Source of the DNA: a virus
Virus record (IMG/VR): IMGVR_UViG_3300021197_001337
Location: 1 to 33,520 of that record
Reading direction: 5' to 3' (one strand)
DNA length: 33,520 nucleotides
Position 1 is the first letter of the stretch; each line of letters begins with the position of its first letter. Shown one piece after another: positions 4,300 to 30,477 of the stretch. The notes beneath the pieces were generated by a model. It saw nothing but the letters and a program-made list of their open reading frames with translations, was not told where the DNA came from and ran no database searches. The translations under genes and the position numbers were made by a program.

Positions 4300-4602
4300 A
4301 TGAATTTCAGACCACAGAATAGATATTTGCTAGTTCAGACCCAAGCGCAGGAGGACGCCGATAATACCGGCGTTCTTTTGCCCGAGGGCTATAGTTTGCC
4401 CAAGGACAAGTATGTTATGGCTACAGTATTGGACAGCGCAGAAGATTGCAAAAAAGAGACTGTTTATGGCGGAGCTTTATACAAGGAAGGGTCAAAAGTT
4501 GTTGTGGATAGTTCCATGATAGAGGCTGTAAGCGTATCTGGGGAAACCTACGAAATCGTTTTGGAAAACTACGTTGTAGGCTTTATGCAGGATAACGGCT
4601 AA
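4300..4602 (+). CDS. GroES-like co-chaperonin (Cpn10 fold)
   Basis: At 100 residues it has GroES size and layout. It opens with MNFRPQNRYLLVQ, comparable to the GroES opening MNIRPLHDRVIVK, then a loop with TGVLLPEGY where GroES has the GroEL-binding mobile loop GGIVLTG. Later GSKVVVDSS aligns with the VGDIVIF strand, and the protein ends in a strand with YEIVLENYVVGFM like the GroES end. I infer a phage co-chaperonin, functionally like T4 gp31, that caps a GroEL ring; the phage GroEL gene is about 18 kb downstream at 22181. It follows the 4046 gene closely and is followed by a terminator. Sequence similarity to GroES is low, so the assignment rests on the pattern of conserved positions. Confidence 0.62.
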   Translation: MNFRPQNRYLLVQTQAQEDADNTGVLLPEGYSLPKDKYVMATVLDSAEDCKKETVYGGALYKEGSKVVVDSSMIEAVSVSGETYEIVLENYVVGFMQDNG

Positions 4603-6994: not shown

Positions 6995-7869
6995 ATAATG
7001 GACACTTGGCTGGGATTGTACCAGTCGCATCCCAAAAGCTAGATTATAATTTCCCATGGCATGACTGCCTCCAACCAATTGGAAAGAACTATTTGGCAGT
7101 CGAAAGGGCAGTTTTAGAGTGTGCGTTTGCTGGTTGCGATACTATATGGATTGTAGCTAATGACGACATCCAACCCCTCATAAAGTCTAGGCTAGGGGAC
7201 TATGTTCAAGATCCGGTTTATATCTTCAGAGAGCACGACCCCGGATACATAAAAGACAATAATAAGCGAATATCAATATATTATACACCAATTCACCCTT
7301 CTGATAGGGACAAGCGTGACTGTCTAGCATGGAGCGTTCTTCATGGGGCAGACACATCCTATAGAGTTTCAAGGGGAATGAGCAAGTGGGTTGCCCCATC
7401 TAGATATTATGTGGCTTTTCCTTATGGGATATACAATCCCTCTATTGTCAGGGAACACAGGATTAACATATCATCTAATAAAGACTTTTATTTGTCTCAT
7501 GGTGGGTCCACAATTAAGGATGGAGAATATCTGGGGTTTACCTTCGGAGAGGAGCAGTATAAATCTTACAGAGATCATCTAAGAGAAACTTCCACCGGAG
7601 CATACAAACCAGTAGAATCGGGAGAATTCCCATCAGAAAAGCTGCCGCTAGAAGAAAGATACTCCGCCAGATTTTTTTCTCTTGACAAAGTGTTCGGGAT
7701 AGGAGATACTAGTGGAGCAAATGTCGTTGAGACCCCACACTACTTCAACATCGACTCTTGGGAAGGGTTGAGAACATACTTGGGATCCGACCACAGAATT
7801 TACAGACACAATACATTATTGACAGGAAAGAAGTTTAATAGGATAGGAGAGGATATTGAAGAAGAGTAG
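6985..7869 (+). CDS. Nucleotidyltransferase-like protein (GT-A fold, tentative)
   Basis: A 294-residue protein whose first 75 residues follow the sugar-phosphate nucleotidyltransferase pattern: strand (AGIVPVA), a lysine and loop, LQPIGKNYL like the PLLPIGKKPIL segment, a helix, then AGCDTIWIVAND like the xGIDEIIIVTNY strand, and a GD further on. The usual glycine-rich GGxGTR nucleotide loop is replaced by ASQKLDYNF, so activity or substrate could differ from the classical family. Residues after about 90 have no recognised motif. It overlaps cysteine synthase upstream by ten bases and the DNA polymerase start downstream by 14 bases, so all three are translationally linked. Confidence 0.5.
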   Translation: MFVNNGHLAGIVPVASQKLDYNFPWHDCLQPIGKNYLAVERAVLECAFAGCDTIWIVANDDIQPLIKSRLGDYVQDPVYIFREHDPGYIKDNNKRISIYYTPIHPSDRDKRDCLAWSVLHGADTSYRVSRGMSKWVAPSRYYVAFPYGIYNPSIVREHRINISSNKDFYLSHGGSTIKDGEYLGFTFGEEQYKSYRDHLRETSTGAYKPVESGEFPSEKLPLEERYSARFFSLDKVFGIGDTSGANVVETPHYFNIDSWEGLRTYLGSDHRIYRHNTLLTGKKFNRIGEDIEEE

Positions 7870-10800
7870 CATACCATTCGTAGGATTACACGCCCACTCA
7901 GTAGCGGGTTCACCCTTTGACGCACTAGGATACCCGCAGGATCATATGGATTACGCATATGAGAATGGAGGCGAAGCTCTAGCATTAACAGACCACGGCA
8001 ATATGAATGGCATGGCTTACCAAGTTCTACATGCTAAGAAGATGAAGGAGGAGGGTAAGAACTTCAAACCAATCTTCGGTGTCGAGGCTTACTTTATCCC
8101 CAGCCTTGATGCTTGGAATGAAGAGAGAGATAGGGCTAAGGAAGATAAGAAGAGAGCTAGCGAACTCAAAGATAGCACAACTATGTCTGTTGAGAATGAA
8201 GGCGAGACCAAGAGATCTAAAAGTATTCTAAACCAACGCTCGCACCTAATCCTCCTAGCCCAGAACCAGACAGGGCTAAACAATATCTTCGCCATGATCT
8301 CTAAGTCTAACTCAGACAAATACTTTTTTCGTTATCCACGAGTAGACTACGAGGTATTGCGAGAGCATAGTGAAGGCGTCATCGCTGCCTCTGCTTGTAT
8401 GGGTGGTGTGTATGCGGCTAACTTCTGGAAGCATTGGGACGGCGAGAAAGAGATTGTAACCGATCCGGAGGCTTGTACTGATGCGTTTAGAGAAACTACT
8501 AAGAATATGGTAGACATCTTTGGTGACCGCTGGTACGGCGAGCTTCAATGGCACACCGACAATAAACAGCATATGATTAACAAGTTGGTCATACAAATGC
8601 ACAAAGAGTTCGGCATCAAGTTGATCTCTACGGCAGACAGCCACTACCCAACACCCACTGCTTGGAAGGACCGCGAACTCTACAAGCGACTAGGATTTCT
8701 AGGCAAAGGAAAGCCGTCTTGGTTGTCGGATGAACTACCAGAGAGCGTAGCGGAAGTTGGCTACGAACTCTACCCAAAGAACGGCGACCAGATGTGGGAA
8801 AGTTATAAACACTACTCAGAGCTTGTAGGCGAGGACTATGATGATGATTTGGTTATGGATTCTATCACAGAGACGCACAACATCGCCTTCAACCGCATCG
8901 AAGAGTTTATGCCGGATAACGAGGTAAGACTGCCTTCTTTCGTTGTTCCCGATGGATACACGGCTGACGCCGCACTAGAGACAACTAGCCTAGAAAGTCT
9001 CAATAAACTTGGGCTCTTAGACAACTCTGTATACCGCGAGAGACTAGAAGAAGAACTGTCTGTGATTTCTGACCGAGGGTTTAGTAAATACTTCCTTACA
9101 ATGAAGGCAATCTCCGACACAGCAACGGAAAACCAACTGGCTGGTCCCGGTCGTGGATCTGCTGCTGGTTCTCTGGTGGCTTATGCCTTGGGTATCACGC
9201 AGGTAGATCCAATCAAGTACGGCTTACAGTTCGCTCGTTTCCTTCGTAAGGACGCGACAGACTATCCTGATATTGATTATGATGTAAGTAATCCGATGAA
9301 GTTGAAAGAGATTATGCAAGACAAGTGGGGGCAGACAACTGTTGTTCCTATCTCTAACTTTAATACTCTACAACTGAAATCATTGGTCAAGGACATCTCA
9401 AAGTTATACGACATCCCATTCACAGAAGCCAACGCAGTCACATCTCGTATGGTTGCGGAGGCTACACCCAAGGCTAAAGCAAAGCATGGCATCAAGTCTG
9501 GTGTATACATACCCACCTTTGAAGAGTTGATGGAGTTCTCTGACAGCCTGCAGGGCTACATGAGAAAATATCCTCACATTAAAAGCCATATTAAAGTTAT
9601 CTACGGGCAAGTGCGTAGCACAAGCAGACACGCTGGCGGCGTTGTGGTGGGTGAAGACCTAGACAAACACATGCCCCTGATTAGAAGCGGGGGCGTAATC
9701 CAGACACCTTGGTCTGAAGGACAGAATGTTAGACACCTAGAGCCACTAGGCTTTATTAAGTTTGATGTGTTGGGGCTCGCCTCGCTGCGTATGATTGAGA
9801 CAGCCATCCGCCACATCCTCAAGCGACACCACAATAATCCAGAGCCAACTTTTAAGGATGTGCGAGCCTACTACGACGAACACCTCCACCCAGACAAGAT
9901 TGATTTGAAAGACTCTAAAGTATATAAGAATATATTTCACAAAGGCAAGTGGGCTGGCATCTTCCAGTTCACAGAGAGTGGGGCACAGAACTTCTGTAAG
10001 AAGGCAAAGCCCAAGAACATCATTGATATCTCAGCCATTACTAGTATCTACCGTCCGGGTCCTCTTGGTGCCAATGTAGACAGGAAGTATGTGAAATCTA
10101 AGGAGAACCCCCGAGACATCAACTACATCAACAGTCATGTAAAGAATGTCACCAAAGAGACATACGGATTTCTTATCTTTCAAGAGCAGATTGCCTCCTT
10201 AGCACATCAACTAGGAGAAAATATTAGTCTTGATGAAGGCAACCTGCTTCGTAAGTTATTGACAAAGAAGGGTACCGGCAAGGGCGCAAAGGACAAGGAG
10301 AAGATCCGCAAGAAGTTTGTTAGTGGTTGTCTCAACAAGAAGATGACCGAGGACCAAGCAGTAGAGTTATGGAACAACTTTGAGTATTTCTCTGGGTATG
10401 GTTTTAACAAATCACACGCGGTGTCCTACTCGATCCTATCATTCCAGTGCGCTTGGTTGTTGAACTACTATCCAGCAGAATGGATGGCTGCCTTCCTCGA
10501 CAAAGAGCCCGACAGTAAAAAAGAAAAGGCCATCGGAGTTGCCAAGTCTATGGGATTTAAGATTGAGCCCCTAAATGTTAACACCTCTGGGAAGGTATGG
10601 GAAATTAGCGACGACGCTAAGACACTAATCCAGCCTCTGACTTCCATTAAAGGCTTAGGAGATTCTGCGATGGATCAGATTCTGATGCATCGACCATTTA
10701 ACACGGTTGAGCAATTCTTATTTCATGAAAAAGTTAGATATTCAAAACTAAATAAAAAGGCTCTCGATGTGTTGTGTCAGGCTGGAGCATTGAGTACACT

Positions 10801-11290
10801 TCAGGATGATAGGTTCACGGGAGATAAACATTTTTGGACTTCTGTTGCCGTTGATCGACCAAGAAAAAGACAAAACCTTCTTGAAAATATAGAAAAATAT
10901 GCTCCAGAGGGAGAGTTTACAGTAGAAGAGAAAATAGAATCGCTAACTGCGTTGACCGGCATATTTCCGATTAGTATGATTATAGGCGAAGAAACACAGA
11001 AGCACCTTATTGATTCTGGTATACCCCCTATATCTGAATTTGACAAAGATTTGAAAGTTTGCTGGTTCATATCCAGAAAGGTTAACATTAAAAAAACAAA
11101 GAATGATAAAACATATTATGTATTAGAGGTTGTTGATTCCAACAACGTTATAACGCAGATCAGATGCTGGGGAGCAAACCCCGAAAGAGACCATATTCAT
11201 AAAAATAAAATATACATTGCTAAATTAGACTACAACGATCAATGGGGATTTTCAACACGCTCGCTGTATCACAACTTTCGTGTTATATAG
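7856..11290 (+). CDS. dnaE: DNA polymerase III alpha subunit (DnaE-type)
   Basis: Replicative C-family DNA polymerase, 1144 residues (E. coli DnaE is 1160). It starts at TTG 7856 after GGAGAGG; the start overlaps the previous gene. Domains: PHP (1-270) with a charged insertion at about 84-128; palm with GPGRGSAAGS (430-439), PDIDYD giving catalytic D472 and D474, and KFDVLGL giving D637; HAGGVV (592-597); a helix-hairpin-helix region (LTSIKGLGDSA, about 920); and an OB-like C-terminal domain. The PHP metal ligands all appear present (H12, H14, D22, H47, E77, H130, C181, D261, H263), as in proofreading-active mycobacterial DnaE1 and unlike E. coli, so it may proofread without a DnaQ partner. 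It ends just before a strong promoter. Confidence 0.95.
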   Translation: MKKSSIPFVGLHAHSVAGSPFDALGYPQDHMDYAYENGGEALALTDHGNMNGMAYQVLHAKKMKEEGKNFKPIFGVEAYFIPSLDAWNEERDRAKEDKKRASELKDSTTMSVENEGETKRSKSILNQRSHLILLAQNQTGLNNIFAMISKSNSDKYFFRYPRVDYEVLREHSEGVIAASACMGGVYAANFWKHWDGEKEIVTDPEACTDAFRETTKNMVDIFGDRWYGELQWHTDNKQHMINKLVIQMHKEFGIKLISTADSHYPTPTAWKDRELYKRLGFLGKGKPSWLSDELPESVAEVGYELYPKNGDQMWESYKHYSELVGEDYDDDLVMDSITETHNIAFNRIEEFMPDNEVRLPSFVVPDGYTADAALETTSLESLNKLGLLDNSVYRERLEEELSVISDRGFSKYFLTMKAISDTATENQLAGPGRGSAAGSLVAYALGITQVDPIKYGLQFARFLRKDATDYPDIDYDVSNPMKLKEIMQDKWGQTTVVPISNFNTLQLKSLVKDISKLYDIPFTEANAVTSRMVAEATPKAKAKHGIKSGVYIPTFEELMEFSDSLQGYMRKYPHIKSHIKVIYGQVRSTSRHAGGVVVGEDLDKHMPLIRSGGVIQTPWSEGQNVRHLEPLGFIKFDVLGLASLRMIETAIRHILKRHHNNPEPTFKDVRAYYDEHLHPDKIDLKDSKVYKNIFHKGKWAGIFQFTESGAQNFCKKAKPKNIIDISAITSIYRPGPLGANVDRKYVKSKENPRDINYINSHVKNVTKETYGFLIFQEQIASLAHQLGENISLDEGNLLRKLLTKKGTGKGAKDKEKIRKKFVSGCLNKKMTEDQAVELWNNFEYFSGYGFNKSHAVSYSILSFQCAWLLNYYPAEWMAAFLDKEPDSKKEKAIGVAKSMGFKIEPLNVNTSGKVWEISDDAKTLIQPLTSIKGLGDSAMDQILMHRPFNTVEQFLFHEKVRYSKLNKKALDVLCQAGALSTLQDDRFTGDKHFWTSVAVDRPRKRQNLLENIEKYAPEGEFTVEEKIESLTALTGIFPISMIIGEETQKHLIDSGIPPISEFDKDLKVCWFISRKVNIKKTKNDKTYYVLEVVDSNNVITQIRCWGANPERDHIHKNKIYIAKLDYNDQWGFSTRSLYHNFRVI

Positions 11291-15505: not shown

Positions 15506-15857
15506 AGAGTTTTGTAATGAAAACAACCTACGCTATAAGAAAGATGCTTGTGGAGATCCTATCTCGCCCAGCAGGAAAGGCTTGAAGACAGACCAAATCT
15601 ATTGGACTGGCGAAGAGGAGCTTGGCATTTATGCCGAGAGACTAACACAGAAGAAGTTTACTTTCTTAAAGAAGAAGCTAGTTGAAGAGTATGGTCTCAA
15701 GCTACACCAAGACGGAGATACAGACTCCACGTTCACAGCAACTAAAGAACAAGCAATCAAAGTCGCTTCCTTCTTAGGCTGCGCTAAGAATGCTGTATCC
15801 CAAGAGACACGAGATAAGATGAGCAGACTTTTAAAAGAGAGGTTGTATAGTGACTAG
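15486..15857 (+). CDS. Hypothetical protein, 123 aa
   Basis: Not recognised. A 123-residue basic protein rich in Lys and Glu with short predicted helices and no hydrophobic segment. The frame is open further upstream to a TTG at 15450, but ATG 15486 is preceded by TTGGAGGA at an ideal distance and gives only a 20-base overlap with the zinc-ribbon gene, so it is preferred. The last third (KEQAIKVASFLGCAKNAVSQETRDKMS) looks helix-turn-helix-like, though not convincingly. It overlaps the IMPDH-family gene start by eight bases. Confidence 0.6.
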   Translation: MTKQEFKEFCNENNLRYKKDACGDPISPSRKGLKTDQIYWTGEEELGIYAERLTQKKFTFLKKKLVEEYGLKLHQDGDTDSTFTATKEQAIKVASFLGCAKNAVSQETRDKMSRLLKERLYSD

Positions 15858-16866
15858 TATAAGTTTTGATGATGTTTTACTGGTACCACAGTATTCAGAC
15901 ATAGAAAGTAGAAAGAGTTTAACAACCAGTAACGAGTTGGATAATACAACCACACTACAACTCCCGGTCATTTCCAGTCCGATGGACACTGTTACTGAAG
16001 TCGACATGGCTTTTGCTATGGATACTCACGGGGGGCTTGGTATTATTCATCGATATAATAGCCCAGCGGAACAAGCCAAGCTGGTTAAGGCGTCTAAACT
16101 AAAAGGAATGACTAATATCGGTGCAGCCATCGGCGTGACTGGCGATTATTTAGAAAGGGCACAGGCACTCGTAGAGGAGGGAGCCAATGTTCTTTGTGTT
16201 GATGTGGCTCATGGTCACCACTCCATGACGAAGGAAGCATTGCGAGTCCTTAAGTTATCCTTTGATTCGTCGGTCCATATCATGGCAGGTAACGTAGCCA
16301 CAGGGGAAGGTGCTGTAGATCTTGCCAATTGGGGTGCCAATAGCGTCCGCGTTGGAATTGGTGGAGGCTCAATTTGCTCGACTCGCCTTGTTTCAGGTCA
16401 TGGTATTCCAACCTTCCAAACAATTATGGAGTGCGTTACTGCTGGCTGTCCGGTCCCCATCATCGCTGACGGTGGGATAAAAACAAGCGGAGACATCGTA
16501 AAGGCTCTGGCTGCTGGCGCTGACTTCGTTATGCTTGGCTCAATGCTAGCAGGGACAGACCAATCCCCCGGACAAGTATTCGACAACGGCAACAAGAGAT
16601 ACAAAGTCTATCGAGGTATGGCGTCAAGTGAAGCCCAAGTTAACTGGCGGGGCAAGACCTCTACACCAGAGGGTGTTTCCACTACCATTCCATACAAAGG
16701 AGATGTGAATAGTATTTTGGCTGATATAAAGGGTGGCATCCAAAGCGGTATGTCTTACTCTGGCGCAAGGACTATCAGGGACTTACAAGCCAAGGCACAG
16801 TTCATTCGACAGACACCAGCCGGTCAGGCAGAGAGTTACACGCACATATTATCGAGGAATAAATGA
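15850..16866 (+). CDS. IMP dehydrogenase / GMP reductase family enzyme, no CBS domains
   Basis: TIM-barrel purine enzyme of 338 residues, starting at GTG 15850. It has [13 protein letters not shown] (6-18), SSPMDTVTE (42-50), AGNVATGEG (146-154), the catalytic loop GGGSICSTR with C176 and T178, ADGGI (206-210) and [12 protein letters not shown] (230-241). The two CBS domains of normal IMPDH (expected after about residue 75) are absent, so it is GMP reductase-sized. The C-terminal QAESYTH is IMPDH-like, but the mobile flap (about 258-280) is short and lacks the Arg-Tyr pair used by IMPDH for hydrolysis. It therefore either makes XMP for GTP supply or runs GMP to IMP. The loop has Gly where IMPDH and GMPR normally have Pro (GPGS). 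Confidence 0.85.
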
Positions 16867-17540: not shown

Positions 17541-18125
17541 ATGAGTAAGAAGAATCTTTTAAGCGAATCTACAATTCGTAAATTTATGAAATTGGCTTCC
17601 ATTGAGCCTTTGGCTAGTGATTTCTTGGGTAGAATTCAAGAGTCTGAAGAAGAGCTTGAAGAAGCCAAAGAAGAAGACATGGACGAAGCCAAAGAAGAAG
17701 ACATGGACGAAGCCAAAGAAGAAGACATGGACGAAGCACATTGCGGTGGAAAAAGAGATGACGAGGACAAGATGGAAGAAGAACTCGACATCGATGAGAT
17801 GGGCGGCGACATGATGTACAAAGATGACGAAGACATGGACATGGAGATGGACATGGATATGGACGCAGAAGAAGGCGGCGATAACATGATTGACTTGGAT
17901 GTCTTCTTGAGTGCTTTAGAAGTAGCGCTTGAGAAAGGTTCAGGGCAAGAAGCGGATGTTACCTTTGACGCCGAAGAGGAAGATATGGACATGGATATGG
18001 ACATGGACGCCGAAGAAGAGCCAGAGATGGACATGGGTGACGAAGAAGAAATGATGGAGCAAGAAGAAGATCTTGCTGAATCCATTTACAAGAAAGTTTT
18101 GGAAAAACTTACTCAAGAAAAATAA
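17541..18125 (+). CDS. Highly acidic repeat protein, scaffold/prohead core-like
   Basis: A 194-residue protein. The N-terminal 33 residues are normal and helical (MSKKNLLSESTIRKFMKLAS and on to FLGRIQE); nearly all the rest is Glu, Asp and Met. It contains three perfect 8-residue repeats (EAKEEDMD) and two DMDMDMD-type blocks, with a less biased helical section near the middle (IDLDVFLSALEVALEK) and a helical C-terminus ending in Lys. Very acidic, lysine-tailed helical proteins next to internal-type capsid proteins suggest a scaffold or prohead core protein; this is inference. ATG 17541 is chosen over the in-frame GTG 17508 because it has AAAAAGGAG upstream. A terminator with an overlapping promoter follows. 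Confidence 0.68.
   Translation: MSKKNLLSESTIRKFMKLASIEPLASDFLGRIQESEEELEEAKEEDMDEAKEEDMDEAKEEDMDEAHCGGKRDDEDKMEEELDIDEMGGDMMYKDDEDMDMEMDMDMDAEEGGDNMIDLDVFLSALEVALEKGSGQEADVTFDAEEEDMDMDMDMDAEEEPEMDMGDEEEMMEQEEDLAESIYKKVLEKLTQEK
17661..17732 (+). repeat. Perfect 24-bp tandem repeat, three copies
   Basis: Units at 17661-17684, 17685-17708 and 17709-17732 are identical and encode EAKEEDMD three times; a partial fourth copy begins at 17733. Perfect identity at the DNA level suggests recent slippage and possible length variation between relatives. Confidence 0.95.
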
Positions 18126-18202: not shown

Positions 18203-18622
18203 ATGAATATGTGGCTAGCCGCAAGTCTTTTTTTCGGAGGAGCCCTATCCTCTGTCGTAATCTCTAAATTTTTGAACCTTTACCAAGGCTTACAATTCAC
18301 CACAGAACTAACACAGCAACTTGTTAATTTCCTTGCCATGGCATCCCAAGACCTCTCAATGACATTAAAAATGAAGTATGAGGCTTTGGAAGACGCGAGT
18401 GTGGAAAAAGATGAGATAGAAAAGATAATTCAAATTGACAAGCAAATAATACGAGCTTGGAAATTGTCTTTCGCTAAGAAAGTTTATCCTTATTATCCGA
18501 AAAGATTTAGAAAAATGCTACTTACATTTGATTGGGATGGTGCTTTACGCCCTTTGGATAATATTTACTATAATAAACCAGAGTCAAAAGACAAAGGGGG
18601 ACAAAAACATGAGCAAGACTAA
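18203..18622 (+). CDS. N-terminally membrane-anchored helical protein
   Basis: Unrecognised 139-residue protein. A hydrophobic N-terminal segment (about residues 3-23, with a GGALSS turn) is probably a membrane anchor or uncleaved signal; the rest is helical and charged, with a basic patch FAKKVYPYYPKRFRKM at about 91-106. GGAG lies six bases before ATG 18203. Its end overlaps the ClpP-like gene start by 14 bases, which implies coupled translation. Function unknown. Confidence 0.65.
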   Translation: MNMWLAASLFFGGALSSVVISKFLNLYQGLQFTTELTQQLVNFLAMASQDLSMTLKMKYEALEDASVEKDEIEKIIQIDKQIIRAWKLSFAKKVYPYYPKRFRKMLLTFDWDGALRPLDNIYYNKPESKDKGGQKHEQD

Positions 18623-19292
18623 AACGCCAAAACCTGAAAAGGTTTCCGATATCGAAGAAGAAGTGGCAGAGAAAACAGATGAAGAGATACAGCAGGAACT
18701 AGCTGGAGCACTAGAGGACTTATTTCAAGCACAGCCTCAAGAATCGCCTATGCGAATCGCAGAACTATATGGTGTAATAGACGAGGAAATGGCTAGCAAC
18801 ATTGTAGCCTCCATGCTCATTTTGAGAAATACGGGAAAAAATACCACCAAGGAAGGGGGGGAGGACACAGAGGCATATACGCCATTTGAACTTTTCATCT
18901 CCACCCCCGGAGGTACAGCCGTCGACATGTTTGCCATCTACGACACCATGCGTATGGTAAAGGAAGACTGTGAAATCCACACAATCGGCATGGGAAAGGT
19001 AATGTCAGCAGGCGTTGTACTGTTGGCCGCTGGCACCAAGGGCAAGCGCAAGATTGGTGCCAACTGTAGAGTAATGATACATAGTGTGATAGGCGGACAT
19101 CACGGCTCCATCCAAAACCTAGAGAACGAGATGGAAGAGGTACGCTGGGTACAGGATCAATATAACAAGGCTCTGTGTGAAGAGACAGACCTGACACCAA
19201 GGATGCTAAAGAAACTATTGTCTCGCAATGTGAATGTATATCTCACAGCACAAGAAGCAGTTGAGTATGGCATCGCAGACATTATTGTATAA
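18609..19292 (+). CDS. ClpP-like serine protease with Ser-His-Asn triad
   Basis: S14-family (ClpP) protein of 227 residues. After a charged, helical 45-residue N-terminal extension come ISTPGG (97-102), the nucleophile S133 in GKVMSAG, and H158 in VMIHS followed by GG, all aligned with E. coli S97 and H122 contexts. The C-terminal YLTAQEAVEYGIAD aligns with FLSAPEAVEYGLVD, but the position of the catalytic Asp (mature E. coli D171) is Asn209. It may have reduced or altered activity. ATG 18609 is chosen over the frame's earlier start because AAGGGGG precedes it. Phage ClpP-like proteins are often prohead proteases; the neighbouring scaffold- and internal-type genes fit that, but host-style proteolysis is also possible. 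Confidence 0.85.
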   Translation: MSKTKTPKPEKVSDIEEEVAEKTDEEIQQELAGALEDLFQAQPQESPMRIAELYGVIDEEMASNIVASMLILRNTGKNTTKEGGEDTEAYTPFELFISTPGGTAVDMFAIYDTMRMVKEDCEIHTIGMGKVMSAGVVLLAAGTKGKRKIGANCRVMIHSVIGGHHGSIQNLENEMEEVRWVQDQYNKALCEETDLTPRMLKKLLSRNVNVYLTAQEAVEYGIADIIV

Positions 19293-19301
19293 GGATAACA
19301 A

Positions 19302-19538
19302 ATGAAAATTACACTACAAGAACTAAAAAATATTATTAAAGAAGAGATGGGAGATGACCCAATCGTAGATGTTCCCGGCATGGGTCGTCGCAAGTTAAGC
19401 AAGGTAAAGGCAGCATTAATTGATCACCTTATCGAAGCAGCCGAAGAAGTTATGACAGAGCCAGCATCTTTCACCCACTTGAACTCAGGGGTAATCCAAG
19501 CACTACACCAAGCACTCAAGGATAACGACGCAGTATGA
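19302..19538 (+). CDS. Small helical protein, possible capsid-internal protein
   Basis: Unrecognised 78-residue protein. The N-terminus MKITLQELKNIIKEEM is an amphipathic basic-hydrophobic helix of the same style as the MKE(I/L)LTEWRKFVNE openings of the next two genes, though less similar and without a clear Glu-Ala/Gly junction. The rest is helical. It begins nine bases after the ClpP-like gene and overlaps the next start by four bases (ATGA), so it belongs to the same operon. Confidence 0.62.
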   Translation: MKITLQELKNIIKEEMGDDPIVDVPGMGRRKLSKVKAALIDHLIEAAEEVMTEPASFTHLNSGVIQALHQALKDNDAV

Positions 19539-19576
19539 AAGAGATACTAACAGAGTGGAGAAAGTTTGTAAATGAA
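19535..19576 (+). repeat. N-terminal cassette repeat, copy 1
   Basis: The first 42 bases of this gene match 20070-20111 at 38 positions and encode MKEILTEWRKFVNE versus MKELLTEWRKFVNE, while the following sequences have diverged. Confidence 0.85.
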
Positions 19577-20059
19577 GGTCTATACGATTCTTTCAGGACA
19601 TCTCGTGATATTGAGGATTACTTCAAAAAGCCCGACTCAACAATCGATGAACTAATACAAGAAGTATTGAATCAGGCTGAAGAACTGGTGTATTTCTTGG
19701 CACCACCAGACCCAGAAGAGTTTGAGGATAGGTACGATGACGATAAAGAATCTATCCAAAGAATTATGTCTGATATAAATATTTATATGTCAAACTGGCT
19801 TGGAAACCACGAAGTAAAAGAAGAGGACAAAGAAAAAGCAAACGCAGTAAAAACTTTTGTTGATTGGCTCAATAGAAACCTTGAAGAAATGGTAGAAATA
19901 TCTTATTCAGCAGAGGAGTGGAGCGACCTCGATTCAAAGTTGCTTAGGATTTTGACCCACATAGCAAAGGACACCCGCCCCCACGGTCCAGAACGACTCC
20001 GCACTCCCCAAAGTATGGATATGCTCTTATCGTTGGCACCACAACTGGATAAGTTTTAG
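19535..20059 (+). CDS. Putative capsid-targeted internal protein A
   Basis: Unrecognised 174-residue, acidic, mostly helical protein. Its first 14 residues, MKEILTEWRKFVNE, followed by Gly, match those of the next gene almost exactly and look like a T4-type capsid targeting sequence, which the prohead protease cuts after Glu before a small residue. The C-terminus LAPQLDKF matches LAPxLxKF-like FAPVLHKF of the next gene, so the two are likely diverged paralogues. The middle has no motif I know. If correct, the mature protein is packaged inside the head and delivered with the DNA. Confidence 0.66.
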   Translation: MKEILTEWRKFVNEGLYDSFRTSRDIEDYFKKPDSTIDELIQEVLNQAEELVYFLAPPDPEEFEDRYDDDKESIQRIMSDINIYMSNWLGNHEVKEEDKEKANAVKTFVDWLNRNLEEMVEISYSAEEWSDLDSKLLRILTHIAKDTRPHGPERLRTPQSMDMLLSLAPQLDKF

Positions 20060-20081
20060 AGGATAAAGAATGAAAGAACTA
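20049..20081 (+). repeat. 33-bp direct repeat at gene junction, copy 1
   Basis: Identical to 20533-20565. It spans the last codons and stop of one gene (ending Lys-Phe-stop), the AGAGGATAAAGA ribosome site and the first codons (MKEL) of the next. Confidence 0.93.
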
Positions 20082-20111
20082 CTAACAGAGTGGCGAAAGT
20101 TTGTAAATGAG
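20070..20111 (+). repeat. N-terminal cassette repeat, copy 2
   Basis: Second copy of the 42-base segment described for 19535-19576; four mismatches, one of which changes an amino acid (Ile to Leu). Confidence 0.85.
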
Positions 20112-20543
20112 GCAGCCGACTCCTATGAAGAACTAAACCCCCACAACATCCCCGGAACGATGTTGGCAGTAGACACTATCAGGAATGCGATTGAGAGCGG
20201 CGTAGAGTATGACCAACTCGGATACAGATACTCAGACTGGAGCAGAGAACTAGGTGTCATTAGGATAAAAGCCAAACAGTTAAAACAGAACCCAGAAAAG
20301 TATACCAAGCAGTTTGAAAAGTATGGCTCACACGCCGTGCCTTGGCTTGAAGGCGTTGAGGATGTCGGACAACTTGCTGATGATATGGCTACCTTTGGTG
20401 AGTGGATTGAGAAGTCTTTTCAGAAGTGGGTTGATGAAGGGCAAGACAGGGACGACGGAGAAACCTTGATAACAAGGATCCAATCCGTAGGCAGAGCACC
20501 AGAAATCTTAAGACAGTTTGCCCCAGTCTTACATAAGTTTTAG
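20070..20543 (+). CDS. Putative capsid-targeted internal protein B
   Basis: Unrecognised 157-residue helical protein. It opens with MKELLTEWRKFVNE then Ala-Ala, the best match in the window to a capsid-targeting peptide with a Glu-Ala cleavage point. Beyond the N-terminus and the C-terminal FAPVLHKF it shares little with the previous protein, which suggests either fast divergence or exchange of cargo behind a conserved tag. The stretch EWIEKSFQKWVDEG is an amphipathic helix. AGAGGATAAAG lies upstream within an exact 33-bp repeat that recurs before the next gene. Confidence 0.66.
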   Translation: MKELLTEWRKFVNEAADSYEELNPHNIPGTMLAVDTIRNAIESGVEYDQLGYRYSDWSRELGVIRIKAKQLKQNPEKYTKQFEKYGSHAVPWLEGVEDVGQLADDMATFGEWIEKSFQKWVDEGQDRDDGETLITRIQSVGRAPEILRQFAPVLHKF

Positions 20544-20565
20544 AGGATAAAGAATGAAAGAACTA
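20533..20565 (+). repeat. 33-bp direct repeat at gene junction, copy 2
   Basis: Identical to 20049-20081. After it the downstream reading frame departs from the targeting cassette (MKELDQLVENFF instead of MKELLTEWRKFV). Confidence 0.93.
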
Positions 20566-22143
20566 GACCAACTTGTAGAAAACTTCTTCCAGCCTAAGCG
20601 AGATACACTTGGGTTAGACCAACTCGTTGAGATGGTTGAGGACTTGATGAATGAGAGGAAAGAAGAGTTGGGTGAGATAGCCGAAAAGATTATAGCCATC
20701 CTCAAAGCAGAGAAAGACGAAGACGGCAATGTCGGCTCCTTCCCTGTCTTTGCGCCCGATGCTACACTGAAGGGAAAGGTTACAGGAAAAACCATTACTT
20801 TAGATAACACTGGCAGCCGGGAAATGAGAAAGAGCCTATTAAATAACAAATTAGGTTCTGACGACGACTTTGATGTTGAAATTGTCAAGGTAGGAGCCGG
20901 AACTACGGCAAAAGTGAGTTACCAAGGGGGTCAACCATTTAGTTTAGTTCTGAGGCAGGGCAGCGTTCCGAAGAGCATCGCAAATATCGGAAACTTCGCC
21001 GAAGGCGTAACAGCATATGCCTTGGCAGAAAGAGTCATACAATACAAATCGGGGTATGACCAAACTAAAACAGGTGATCTTGGATATCCACAGACAGCAC
21101 CAGAAGATATTTCTATTGACGACATTAAAAAACTCTCCAATGAAATAGAGTGGGACACAGTAGAAGAAAAGGGAGACAAGAGAACTCTAAAGAAAAAGAG
21201 ATTTGAACTTGATGACGGAGATTTCCTTGAGCTAACTATTGGATTAGATAATATTACTTGGAAAGACTTGGACAATATTGATAAATGGAGCTTCGCAGAA
21301 AGCACTGTCGCCTCTGCTGTCAGATTTGCAAACAGCAAATTTTCCACCGGCTTTATAGACTCAAGTATGGGCGGTATTGACCGCAGGAAAAAGAAAGACG
21401 GCGATGTAATAGAAGTGACCGCAGACGGAGTTAGCGACCAAGAGGGCACTACAGCAGACTTAAAAATTCAAATGAAAACCGCCGATGGAAACTACATCAG
21501 AAACTTGAAGACAGGCAACATATCTCTCAAAACTAAGAACACAAAGCAGTTGGGACAGGCGGGTAAGAAAAAGAAAGATAGTGTAAAGAAGTTTGTAAAA
21601 TTCTTCAGTGACCTCTACGACTACCATCTGACTCCTCAAGAGTTGGACGACTTCACAACTCTTCCCAGAGAAGACCTTTTTGGGCAGACGGGATATTTTG
21701 ACACTCTGTTTGATAATGTCATAGATAGAGTAGAAAATATGAGCACACCAAAAGAGGAGTCGTTCATAAGAAGATTGTCCCGCTTCGTTGTAGACACCGC
21801 TGGGGGACCTGACATTACATTGATTAAGTTACTGGACGATGACTATGTTGTATACGACTTGGCTAAAGAAATTGTTGAGGACTTTGATATCAAACTTGAG
21901 AAGGTCATGACGAAAAGCGGTATCCCATATCTGTACACTTACATAGTTGGTAGACAGGGTACCGAATTGGCAGGAGAAAAACTACAGCTTATAACTATGC
22001 GACCAAGAAGAGACGCCGATGGATTCCGATTCTATGTAGAGCAAGGCGACCACTACAATGCTTTCTATAAGTACGAAAGAGATCAGGTTAAAAAAGAAAA
22101 AGAAGAAGCCGAACAAAAACCCTTGACAAACCCACCACAATAG
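20554..22143 (+). CDS. Large internal-type protein, possible PD-(D/E)XK-like nuclease domain
   Basis: A 529-residue protein in the internal-protein operon. The N-terminus MKELDQLVENFFQ is related to the targeting cassette in its first four codons. The middle has a pattern seen in some restriction-like nucleases: a helix with IGNFAEGVTAYALAER (E150), then ADLKIQ (D302), then a strand with ISLKTKNTKQLGQ (K326). In a PD-(D/E)XK core this would be helix Glu, Asp and the xxK lysine, but the (D/E)xK acidic residue is Ser324, so this is tentative. The C-terminus is Lys/Glu-rich. Its 3' end contains the groEL promoter. If it is packaged, it might act on host DNA after injection; no closer homologue is known to me. 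Confidence 0.6.
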   Translation: MKELDQLVENFFQPKRDTLGLDQLVEMVEDLMNERKEELGEIAEKIIAILKAEKDEDGNVGSFPVFAPDATLKGKVTGKTITLDNTGSREMRKSLLNNKLGSDDDFDVEIVKVGAGTTAKVSYQGGQPFSLVLRQGSVPKSIANIGNFAEGVTAYALAERVIQYKSGYDQTKTGDLGYPQTAPEDISIDDIKKLSNEIEWDTVEEKGDKRTLKKKRFELDDGDFLELTIGLDNITWKDLDNIDKWSFAESTVASAVRFANSKFSTGFIDSSMGGIDRRKKKDGDVIEVTADGVSDQEGTTADLKIQMKTADGNYIRNLKTGNISLKTKNTKQLGQAGKKKKDSVKKFVKFFSDLYDYHLTPQELDDFTTLPREDLFGQTGYFDTLFDNVIDRVENMSTPKEESFIRRLSRFVVDTAGGPDITLIKLLDDDYVVYDLAKEIVEDFDIKLEKVMTKSGIPYLYTYIVGRQGTELAGEKLQLITMRPRRDADGFRFYVEQGDHYNAFYKYERDQVKKEKEEAEQKPLTNPPQ

Positions 22144-22180: not shown

Positions 22181-23755
22181 ATGTCTAAACAATATGAATC
22201 AGGTCAGACCCTTCAGCAGAAGATTGCCAAGGGTATTGATGTCTTGGCTGATAATGTAGCAGCCACCATGGGCCCACGGGGTCGCAATGTCATCCTACAC
22301 CAAGAAGGTTCCAACCCAATCATCACAAAGGACGGAGTAACAGTCGCCAAGTTCGTTGACTTGGAAGACCCCTTTGAGAATGTCGGCGTCCAAATCCTAA
22401 AGCAGGTAGCAGACCAAACCAACACAGACGCAGGTGACGGCACCACGACATCCACAGTCTTGGCTCGTGCTATCTACAACAACGCACAGAAATATATTGC
22501 TTCAGGTGTCTGTCCCGTTGAGATTAAGAGAGGCATGGACAAGGCAGTCGCACAGGTAGTGAGCATATTAAAAGAAGACTCCAAGCCTGTCAAGTCTAAG
22601 GAAGACATCAAGCATGTGGCAACTATCTCAGCCAACGGTGACAAGGTTATTGGTGACCTGATTGCTACCGCCATCGACCAAGCAGGAAAAGATGGTGCTA
22701 TCACAGTAGAAGAGGCTCGCTCCCTTGAGACAAGCCTCGACATCGTTGAGGGTTTCCGCTTTGATTCTGGCTACATAAGCCCCCAATTTATTAACAACGA
22801 GAGGCGTCACGCTGTCGAGTATGAGAACCCATACATCTTGGTGACTGATGCGAAACTTGAAACAGTCGAAGACATGCTCCCTGTTTTAGAGTTGGTAGCG
22901 AGAGAGGGCAAGCCATTTGTAATCGTTGCCGAGAATATTGAAGGTCAGGCACTCGCGGCTCTTATCATGAATGCTGTTCGTGGCACCATGAGGGTGGCAG
23001 CGGTAAAGGCTCCCCGTTATGGAGAGGAGAGGCGAGAGATTCTAAAAGACCTTGCTGTATCCGTTGGGGCAACCTTTGTCACAACAGAGCTAGGTCATGA
23101 GATGGGCGATGTGAAGTTAACAGACTTTGGTACAGCCAAGAAGATTAGTATCAGCAAGAGCATTACAACCATCGTGGATGGTCAGGGCGATGGTCAGAAA
23201 GTCCAAGAAAGAATCGAGACGCTCAAGGAAACAATTAAAGAAACCGAAAGCCTACAAGAGAGCGAGAAATACCAAGAAAGAATCACCAGACTGGCTAGCG
23301 GTATTGCCATCATCCGAGTTGGAGCAGCCACAGAGATTGAGATGGTTGAGAAGAAGCACCGATTAGAGGATGCCCTAGAGGCTGTTCGCTCTGCTAGGGA
23401 GGAGGGTCTGGTATCTGGTGGTGGCGTGGCTCTACTCAGGGTAGCCAACAAATTAGATGTTGAATGTGAAAACGATGAGCAGGAGTGCGGAGTCAAGATT
23501 ATTAAAAGTGTATTGACTGCTCCAATCAAACAAATGCTTATCAACGCAGGGCAATCACCAGATGTTATCATTAGCGAGGTAATGAACCTAGAAGATGATA
23601 ACATGGGGTATAATGTGGCAACAGGTGAGTTCGTTGATATGTACGAGAGTGGCATTATCGACCCGGTAAAGGTCACATCCTCTGCCCTAAAGAACGCTAG
23701 CAGCGTTGTATCTACACTAATTACTACGAACCATTGTATAATTCAAGGTAGTTGA
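22181..23755 (+). CDS. groEL: GroEL chaperonin (Hsp60)
   Basis: Group I chaperonin of 524 residues (E. coli GroEL is 548). Conserved regions: ATMGPRGRNV (28-37), ITKDGVTVAK with D51, the ATP site GDGTTT (85-90, D86), the apical domain with EGFRFDSGYISPQF (190-203), and HRLEDALEAVR with the hydrolytic D397, equivalent to E. coli D398, then GGGVALL. All key ATPase residues are present, so it should be an active folding ring. The C-terminal Gly-Gly-Met tail that lines the cavity in bacterial GroEL is missing; the protein ends TTNHCIIQGS. A phage GroEL-like ring probably folds phage proteins; the partner may be the GroES-like gene at 4300. It has its own strong promoter. Confidence 0.96.
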   Translation: MSKQYESGQTLQQKIAKGIDVLADNVAATMGPRGRNVILHQEGSNPIITKDGVTVAKFVDLEDPFENVGVQILKQVADQTNTDAGDGTTTSTVLARAIYNNAQKYIASGVCPVEIKRGMDKAVAQVVSILKEDSKPVKSKEDIKHVATISANGDKVIGDLIATAIDQAGKDGAITVEEARSLETSLDIVEGFRFDSGYISPQFINNERRHAVEYENPYILVTDAKLETVEDMLPVLELVAREGKPFVIVAENIEGQALAALIMNAVRGTMRVAAVKAPRYGEERREILKDLAVSVGATFVTTELGHEMGDVKLTDFGTAKKISISKSITTIVDGQGDGQKVQERIETLKETIKETESLQESEKYQERITRLASGIAIIRVGAATEIEMVEKKHRLEDALEAVRSAREEGLVSGGGVALLRVANKLDVECENDEQECGVKIIKSVLTAPIKQMLINAGQSPDVIISEVMNLEDDNMGYNVATGEFVDMYESGIIDPVKVTSSALKNASSVVSTLITTNHCIIQGS

Positions 23756-28759: not shown

Positions 28760-28791
28760 ACTTACCACCATTGACGTGTAAGGAGTATACA

Positions 28792-30477
28792 ATGACAAAG
28801 CTAAACATCATCTTGGGAATTACCCTAAGTCTTTTAACCACCTATGCCTATGCTGAAGAGGGCACCCCACCTAACGAAGTGGAATCTGAAGTAAGCGAGA
28901 CAGACACTTCGTTTGTCGGGGCTCGCATCCTCAAAGAAGGTGCCGAAGTATCTGGGGGAGAACCTTACACAGGCATTTACGAAGACAATGAAACCCAAAG
29001 CTACGGCTTCTGGCAAGGGGACACGCTCTTCTTTGGCGCAGACAACGAAGCAACAGGCAACACCGTCGATGGCGTGGCTGAATTCTATTGGTTCGAGTCA
29101 TCCATACCCAAGTCGGCTGATTTCTATGTGATGGTTTTAAAAGTTAAATCCTCGCCAAATATCATCGACGACTGGCAACTAGCCCAAGAAGACAACTGGC
29201 TTGGCGAGTTCCTTTACGACATCCTACCCGCACAATACGTTGATGTAAAGATGAAAAATAGTGGTGAAGCCGGGGCTATTCGTTGGGACTGGTCTGTTCC
29301 ATTCCAAAACTATAAGTGGGAGCCCATCAAGACAATTAACATCCAACAGTCTTACTCCGCTGGTTATGATACCTCTGTCTCTGGTGGTGCTAATGGTGAT
29401 GTAGGTTGGAAGGGAGAGTTCAAGGAAGCAGGTGTCCTAGCCGATGCTACTGCTGGTGTGAACATTCAGTCCAAGGGGTACGTTAATGAATCTTATATGG
29501 TAGCTTCCCAGTATTCTGTTACTCTGTATAAATGGGAGATGGTTGTGCTAGGTGGTGCTGATGATATGATCTGGAATCTAATCATCAGCACTGATGGTTC
29601 AACTGCTAATGATTCTGCTTACCATGAATACTTCGTTGTTATTCAAGCACCGCAGGGAGAGTTGGTTCACATAGAAGATATAAACATTGGTGCTTCTTTC
29701 AGGAATCCTAACGCTCTCTGGTTTGATGGTTGGGATCATATCTCTATGACTCTTGGTGATGTTATATGGGGACCTCCAGTTGATATTGAATGCTATGAGG
29801 GTGATGAACCTCTAGAGGATGCTTGTGGAGGCGAAGGTGTTTGCGCTCAGTCCCAACCTGTTTGTGCTAAGGGTGAATGGTTATGCGTTACACCCGACTC
29901 CAAAGAGTTGGTCGAGCTTACCTGTGATGGATTGGACAACGATTGTGATGGACTAGTTGATGAAGAACTATACCAAGACTGCTCAACAGAGTGTGGTAAG
30001 GGGCAATCCCAATGTGTCTTGGGCTCTTGGGTATCTTGCGATGCTGACCTTCCAACCGAGGAAGAGTGCAATGGTGTTGATGATGACTGCGATGGTCTCA
30101 TAGACAACTCCCCTGATTGCTATCCAGAGCAGGAAGACTTCTGGTGGGATGAGCAAGATGTAGCCGAAGAGGGAGACGTGGAAGTTGCCGACATCATTGA
30201 GGAAATGGATGTTGTTGAAGAAGACGCAGCCGATTCACCAAAGCAAGTTAGCAGACCTGATCCATTCGACGAGGCAGATACCTATGGAGATCCTACCGCG
30301 CCTTTCTCTTTCGCTGGTCCAGATGTAGCAGAGCCCCAAGAGATACTGGTTGAAGTATCAGAGAGCGGGGGATGCCATCAGACTTCTAGAATTAGTTCTT
30401 TTAGTATTTTGATGTTATTATTTGTCGGGGTATATTTCTTTGGATATGTGATCGGAAGAATCGGCAATAAAGATTGA
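28792..30477 (+). CDS. Secreted MopE-motif protein with MYXO-CTERM-like tail
   Basis: A 561-residue exported protein starting at ATG 28792 after AAGGAG. The signal peptide (1-21) ends AYA-EE. Residues about 40-330 form a beta-rich, Trp- and Gly-rich region I do not recognise. Two copies of the MopE-type metal-binding motif follow: CDGLDNDCDGLVDEE (378-392) and CNGVDDDCDGLID (426-438), with further Cys pairs between them. An acidic, Asp/Glu/Pro-rich linker leads to a tail with SGGC (525-528), a hydrophobic helix (about 535-553) and GRIGNK: the layout of the MYXO-CTERM surface-sorting signal. Both features are common in Myxococcota surface proteins and unusual in phages, so it is probably host-derived. 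It could alter the infected cell's surface or be acquired cargo. Confidence 0.75.
   Translation: MTKLNIILGITLSLLTTYAYAEEGTPPNEVESEVSETDTSFVGARILKEGAEVSGGEPYTGIYEDNETQSYGFWQGDTLFFGADNEATGNTVDGVAEFYWFESSIPKSADFYVMVLKVKSSPNIIDDWQLAQEDNWLGEFLYDILPAQYVDVKMKNSGEAGAIRWDWSVPFQNYKWEPIKTINIQQSYSAGYDTSVSGGANGDVGWKGEFKEAGVLADATAGVNIQSKGYVNESYMVASQYSVTLYKWEMVVLGGADDMIWNLIISTDGSTANDSAYHEYFVVIQAPQGELVHIEDINIGASFRNPNALWFDGWDHISMTLGDVIWGPPVDIECYEGDEPLEDACGGEGVCAQSQPVCAKGEWLCVTPDSKELVELTCDGLDNDCDGLVDEELYQDCSTECGKGQSQCVLGSWVSCDADLPTEEECNGVDDDCDGLIDNSPDCYPEQEDFWWDEQDVAEEGDVEVADIIEEMDVVEEDAADSPKQVSRPDPFDEADTYGDPTAPFSFAGPDVAEPQEILVEVSESGGCHQTSRISSFSILMLLFVGVYFFGYVIGRIGNKD

Follow-up and report, generated by a model that had tools for sequence, protein, structure and literature searches.

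The internal proteins of phage T4 offer the closest described precedent for the locus reported here. The T4 prohead protease gp21 cuts at the motif L/I-x-E, and in the internal protein IPIII residues 4 and 7 serve targeting while residues 8 and 10 serve processing (PMC9026906). The T4 sequence MKTYQEFIAE, with its cut annotated after residue 10 (X04567), has Tyr4, Phe7, Ile8 and Glu10 as functional residues. T4 packages and injects the ADP-ribosyltransferase Alt (PMC9026906, PMC5512222). Phages are also known to counter restriction with enzymes that degrade SAM (PMC7877911). In T-even phages, diverse injected proteins are already known to share a conserved packaging leader (PMC3012670, PMC12373910); the present case stands out for the breadth of its cargo and for the exchange of leaders. 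We describe a tag, MKxLLTEWRKF(L/V/I)xE, that very probably serves uncultured phages with T4-type heads as a lineage-specific capsid-targeting propeptide; targeting, cleavage, packaging and injection we infer from sequence.

We analysed a 33,520-base stretch of viral DNA from IMG/VR (the window; Table 1), and found that two adjacent genes for 174-aa and 157-aa proteins open with MKEILTEWRKFVNE-G and MKELLTEWRKFVNE-AA, respectively. The common pattern MKE(I/L)LTEWRKFVNE, given in the original prediction with 38 of 42 bases identical, was confirmed with four differing bases. This N-terminal block is the sole BLASTP match between the two proteins (E = 1e-6). The divergence noted for the rest holds at the BLAST level, but not necessarily beyond it. 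Profile comparison of the tag-less bodies gave E = 0.0028 over about 64 C-terminal columns at a probability of only 11%, and both proteins end in (D/H)KF-stop, followed by an identical AGGATAAAGA-ATGAAAGAACTA junction, suggesting that the two bodies may be old duplicates of each other. Homologues of the 174-aa protein were found in three records (L016, L018, L021; 38-39% identity in the tag-less body), and those of the 157-aa protein in two (L006, L018). The two tag copies are all that the window contains.

Structure models of the two proteins had helical bodies, with a mean pLDDT of 78 for the 157-aa protein and 73 for the 174-aa protein. The modelled tag forms a low-confidence helix (residues 2-15/16, pLDDT about 45-50) separate from the bodies. 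For the 157-aa model, Foldseek brought up no relative with E under 0.1 in BFVD or under 0.2 in the PDB. PADLOC gave zero hits, and when cultured phages were searched at both the DNA and the protein level for counterparts of the window region and its proteins, nothing useful came back. By analogy with the T4 internal proteins, our best guess is that the two window proteins inhibit a host defence.

Table 1. Coordinates of the features of the tagged locus in the window
Feature	Position	Strand	Remark
ClpP-type protease	18606..19292	+	left border of the variable slot holding the tagged genes
ORF, 78-aa protein	19302..19538	+	adjoins the tagged pair on the left
Second-type leader MKITLQELKNIIKE(E)	19302..19343	+	on the 78-aa protein
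ORF, 174-aa tagged cargo protein	19535..20059	+	helical body
Leader (tag) 1 MKEILTEWRKFVNE	19535..19576	+	predicted cut after E14, before Gly
Gene junction AAGTTTTAGAGGATAAAGA-ATGAAAGAACTA, copy 1	20051..20081	+	stop, ribosome-binding region, start
ORF, 157-aa tagged cargo protein	20070..20543	+	helical body
Leader (tag) 2 MKELLTEWRKFVNE	20070..20111	+	predicted cut after E14, before Ala-Ala
Repeated gene junction AAGTTTTAGAGGATAAAGA-ATGAAAGAACTA, copy 2	20535..20565	+	
529-aa protein	20554..22143	+	phrog_33928, unknown function, E 6e-6
Third, longer leader-like N-terminus MKELDQLVENFFQPKRDTLGLDQLVEMVEDLMNE	20554..20655	+	of the 529-aa protein
GroEL-type chaperonin	22181..23755	+	right border of the block

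To sample the tag in other phages, IMG/VR was scanned with a degenerate 38-base DNA pattern that leaves residue 14 outside, and 48 matching stretches were found. The same strict pattern gave zero matches in 257 Gb of sequence covering 85,000 species of bacteria and archaea, so pairwise chance is no longer at issue. A tblastn search with the bare tag gave zero matches, and no paper with the string TEWRKF was found in the full text of the open-licence PMC literature. The expectation that the tag would mark further cargo elsewhere was borne out in other IMG/VR records, which carry up to seven copies each. The IMG/VR scans yielded 159 distinct proteins with the tag, which single-linkage clustering sorts into 61 cargo families. 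One leader is therefore common to at least 60 otherwise unrelated proteins, the arrangement of a short shared propeptide that characterises a capsid-targeting sequence (CTS).

We examined the cargo behind the tag with Pfam. One aligned family, made up of nine tagged proteins and three from cultured phages, matched the SAM lyase model PF23780 in 12/12 members (best E 8.9e-22); this assignment rests on Pfam because a profile search against the PDB gave Svi3-3 alone, at E 0.56. The ADP-ribosyltransferase domain ART-PolyVal was found in several tagged proteins, and further matches were to Nudix hydrolase, C39 (cysteine) peptidase, acyltransferase, exonuclease, AAA_33 kinase and 2H phosphodiesterase, with weak ParB-like matches. 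One tagged SAM-lyase protein (L047:2214-3179) contains an internal tag-like segment, LMEGWRQRLNE/SGLNR (slashes mark the end of the cut motif), with an LxE site directly before the lyase part, and may have arisen by fusion of two tagged cargo genes.

The nature of the cargo bears on the question of where the tagged proteins end up. They might be assembly or internal structural proteins that are targeted to the prohead core, cut by gp21 and then stay in the head, since gp21 also cuts the core proteins in T4 (PMC9026906), and both window bodies are small and helical, with no recognisable enzyme. However, the cargo that can be recognised is enzymatic and of kinds suited to evading restriction or taking over the host (SAM lyase, ADP-ribosyltransferases, Nudix, C39 peptidase, kinase, exonuclease). 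It also varies among closely related genomes, unlike essential core proteins. We consider a purely structural role unlikely, and prefer delivery to the next host.

We found that the end of the tag carries a strong signal. Glu14 was present in 58/58 unique N-termini from the strict pattern. A broader pattern, in which residues 12 onward were left free, yielded 153 unique 30-residue N-termini; of these, 117 carry Glu14 and 149 show [LIVM]-x-Glu within residues 14-19, compared with 19, 27, 10 and 12 for control windows of equal size from residues 24, 34, 44 and 54. The P3 residue in the 149 motif-bearing N-termini is L in 100, I in 27, V in 16 and M in 6, and small residues (G, S, A) follow the motif Glu in only 72 of them, whereas a further Glu follows it in 24. 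Information content exceeds 2 bits at residue 14 and is about 0.2 from residue 17 on, and conservation among the tagged proteins drops to background past residues 14-15. In length variants (FVLTE/G, FVALNE/A, FIVKE/S, FANLNE/S) the position of the Glu shifts and the motif is kept. Since W8, R9 and F/Y11 were imposed wholly or partly by the search patterns, they are not independent evidence. The hydrophobic moment of the tag (0.62-0.64) is equalled by 1% of shuffles, as expected of an amphipathic helix.

These data also speak to whether the peptide or its DNA is the conserved unit. Six codons are used for Arg9 and both codons for Glu14 while the amino acids remain constant, and selection therefore acts on the peptide. 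A DNA or RNA cassette copied between genes, such as a translation start or a recombination joint with no peptide function, might account for the sharing of synonymous codons (61% within a locus and 55% between loci, permutation p about 0.01) and for the AGGATAAAGA-ATG junction repeated upstream in the window. But such a cassette would not explain the codon changes or the motif kept by the length variants, and the conservation of DNA upstream of the tags is limited to the purine-rich ribosome-binding region. It is thus a very improbable explanation.

Furthermore, we assessed whether tagged phages have the protease and the head protein that a T4-type tag would call for. A gp21-type prohead protease (Peptidase_S77) was found above the cut-off in 12/36 tagged records, many of them fragments, including 6/7 of those longer than 140 kb, compared with 0/14 control genomes; one long tagged record (146.7 kb) gave no gp21 match. 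Tags and gp21 lie on one strand in 12/12 records having both. The tag cluster is located about 9-19 kb before gp21 in seven of these 12 records, and about 19-21 kb before it in two more if the records are circular. The Gp23 head protein was found in 20/30 searched records (27 tagged, 3 syntenic relatives), and 13/13 head proteins have (L/V)L(R/K)E at the predicted maturation-cut place, as placed by reading the alignment to T4 gp23. In L192, one gene with the tag and one with a variant of it (ENWRKFLMNE) stand ahead of terminase, portal, gp21 (L192:9448-10041) and the head protein in a single gene run.

Neither gp21 nor gp23 was found in the window fragment, so its head type has to be judged from syntenic relatives. 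Three longer relatives of its ClpP-GroEL block (G038, G039, G040) have both gp21 and Gp23, indicating that the phage of the window probably has a T4-type head. It is hardly credible that recognition of the tag, and processing or degradation of the tagged proteins, falls to the neighbouring ClpP-type protease instead of gp21. The clpP gene does lie directly upstream, and its product matches PHROG head-maturation-protease profiles. However, ClpP is kept where the slot has no tagged gene (L178, L179, L184-L188), the tags of other records lie in head-gene neighbourhoods, the protease by the portal and head protein in L192 is gp21-type, and the end motif of the tag is the gp21 motif.

We found that the same cargo occurs behind different leaders. 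In four cultured or complete phage genomes, the SAM lyase starts with MQFKQYILGE/SSLSR (Microcystis phage Mel-JY01), MNFEQLLESEINALSE/SSLSR (Alishewanella phage Slicko01), ...DNFNE/SSLSR (Campylobacter phage CPt10, where P3 is Phe) and ...NNELNE/KSLNR (Lak-A1). The EWR tag is present in 0/4 of these genomes and gp21 in 4/4. The same kinase (E 5e-37) and the same 2H phosphoesterase (E 4e-16) each stand behind either an EWR or an MKIT leader, depending on the record. Nearly all alternative leaders on the SAM-lyase and kinase cargo end in [aliphatic]-x-Glu. Taken together, the proposed analogy with T4 capsid targeting is supported by all available comparative tests, namely the unrelated cargo, the [aliphatic]-x-Glu end, gp21/gp23 and the leader exchange.

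The genes flanking the tagged pair have N-terminal sequences of their own. The helix of the preceding gene, originally taken as similar to the tag, is leader-like, but it belongs to another leader family (MKITxxQLxxIIKEE) and is not a variant of the tag. This leader is commoner than the EWR tag, with 220 distinct N-termini and 174 families in the sample. MKIT leaders often share records with the EWR tag, and there they are always on the same strand. Glu14 is present in 26/29 cases not selected by the MKIT scan, and the whole set shows a second [LIVM]xE peak near residues 18-22. A homologue of the 78-aa protein in L176 has a near-identical body and a more divergent N-terminus. MKITxxQLxxIIKEE also resembles the N-terminus MKKSEFKEMIKESVKEVLVEE of a gene beside gp21 (L192:10046). 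A full-text search of the open-licence PMC literature for IIKEE gave no phage paper among the matches listed.

The following gene shares only MKEL with the tag, as had been stated, and has its own conserved N-terminal stretch of about 34 residues (MKELDQLVENFFQPK...). This stretch was found just before groEL in the window and in L176, L178, L179, L182 and L183; the bodies behind it are highly variable in sequence and range from 294 to 775 aa in the relatives. Less certainly, the MKIT-type and 529-aa-type N-termini may also be targeting leaders. We see about even chances that two or more non-homologous capsid-targeting codes (EWR, MKIT, perhaps MKELDQLVENFF) coexist in uncultured T4-like phages, where they would load well over 100 quickly exchanged protein families. 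If so, a large hidden class of proteins that are injected and act early could be recognised by their leaders alone.

Relatives preserve the gene order clpP - variable slot - MKELDQLVENFF gene - groEL, and the content of the slot changes. It holds the 78-aa gene and two tagged genes in the window, a different tagged 147-aa gene in L003 (where the 529-aa protein is 91% identical to that of the window), two tagged genes in L182, the 78-aa gene alone in L176, and none of these genes in L178 and L179. More distant relatives have a different protein of about 300 aa, peptidoglycan-binding-like by reading. No DNA-level match of the window's locus was found in cultured phages. Because both tag and cargo appear mobile, the clpP-groEL slot would be an exchangeable cargo bay.

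Several other genes were noted in the window. An acidic low-complexity protein with EEDMDEAK repeats (MSKKNLLSESTIRKFMKLASIEPL..., 17541-18125) has an N-terminal block conserved in the clpP-block relatives and a variable remainder, and is possibly another core or scaffold-related protein. By reading, GroES-like and IMP dehydrogenase-like proteins accompany the chaperonin (4300-4602, 15850-16866, 22181-23755). A 1144-aa DNA polymerase III alpha-like protein with a PHP domain, also by reading, is encoded at 7856-11290; such a protein is unusual for a T4-type phage. The region 28771-30477 encodes a 568-aa protein that, by reading, looks secreted, with DGLDNDCDGLVDEE repeats (MopE-like) and a C-terminal membrane anchor.

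The tag is a label that ends where a T4-type head protease would be expected to cut and stands on unrelated proteins, which are therefore most likely directed to the head for delivery to the next host. In the proposed mechanism, the tag, as a short amphipathic helix, would bring unrelated proteins into the prohead core, where a gp21-type prohead protease would cut after the terminal [LIVM]-x-Glu. Once released, the proteins would be packaged alongside the DNA and pass into the next host, where they may act before phage gene expression, in restriction evasion or host modification. The tag would move between cargo genes, and cargo genes between leaders. If this is right, a 14-residue string marks, from DNA alone, proteins injected at the start of infection, providing a simple route to hundreds of candidate anti-defence and host-takeover proteins of uncultured phages. 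The reach of the T4 packaging tag, known mainly from T-evens, and the swapping of cargo would also become testable.

Compared with known systems, the tag resembles the CTS of T4 IPI, IPII, IPIII and Alt in being a short N-terminal helix before unrelated bodies, and shares the MK start with IPIII. Both have an aromatic residue at P7 and P4, an aliphatic one at P3 and Glu at P1. Counted from the cut, T4 Y4, F7, I8 and E10 correspond to W8, F11, L12 and E14 of the tag, in segments too short for a homology test. A gp21-family protease, a gp23-family head protein and polymorphic cargo are common to T4 internal-protein phages and tagged phages (PMC9026906, PMC3012670, PMC12373910). The tag differs from the T4 CTS in its length (14 versus 10 residues), its EWR core, its occurrence on up to seven genes per record and its 61 cargo families, and its role in packaging is a prediction from sequence. 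The polymorphic internal-protein loci of T-even phages, as presented for Repoila et al. 1994 in PMC12373910, likewise have exchangeable genes with the packaging leader alone in common; relative to that account, the chemistry of the tagged cargo is much wider (SAM lyase, ADP-ribosyltransferase, kinase, peptidase). Some tagged cargo has the ART-PolyVal domain, a point of likeness to the polyvalent proteins and phage P1 DarA/DarB, a class for which co-injection with DNA was proposed (PMC5512222). Polyvalent proteins are giant and multidomain, whereas tagged cargo proteins are mostly small, with a predicted cleavable tag.
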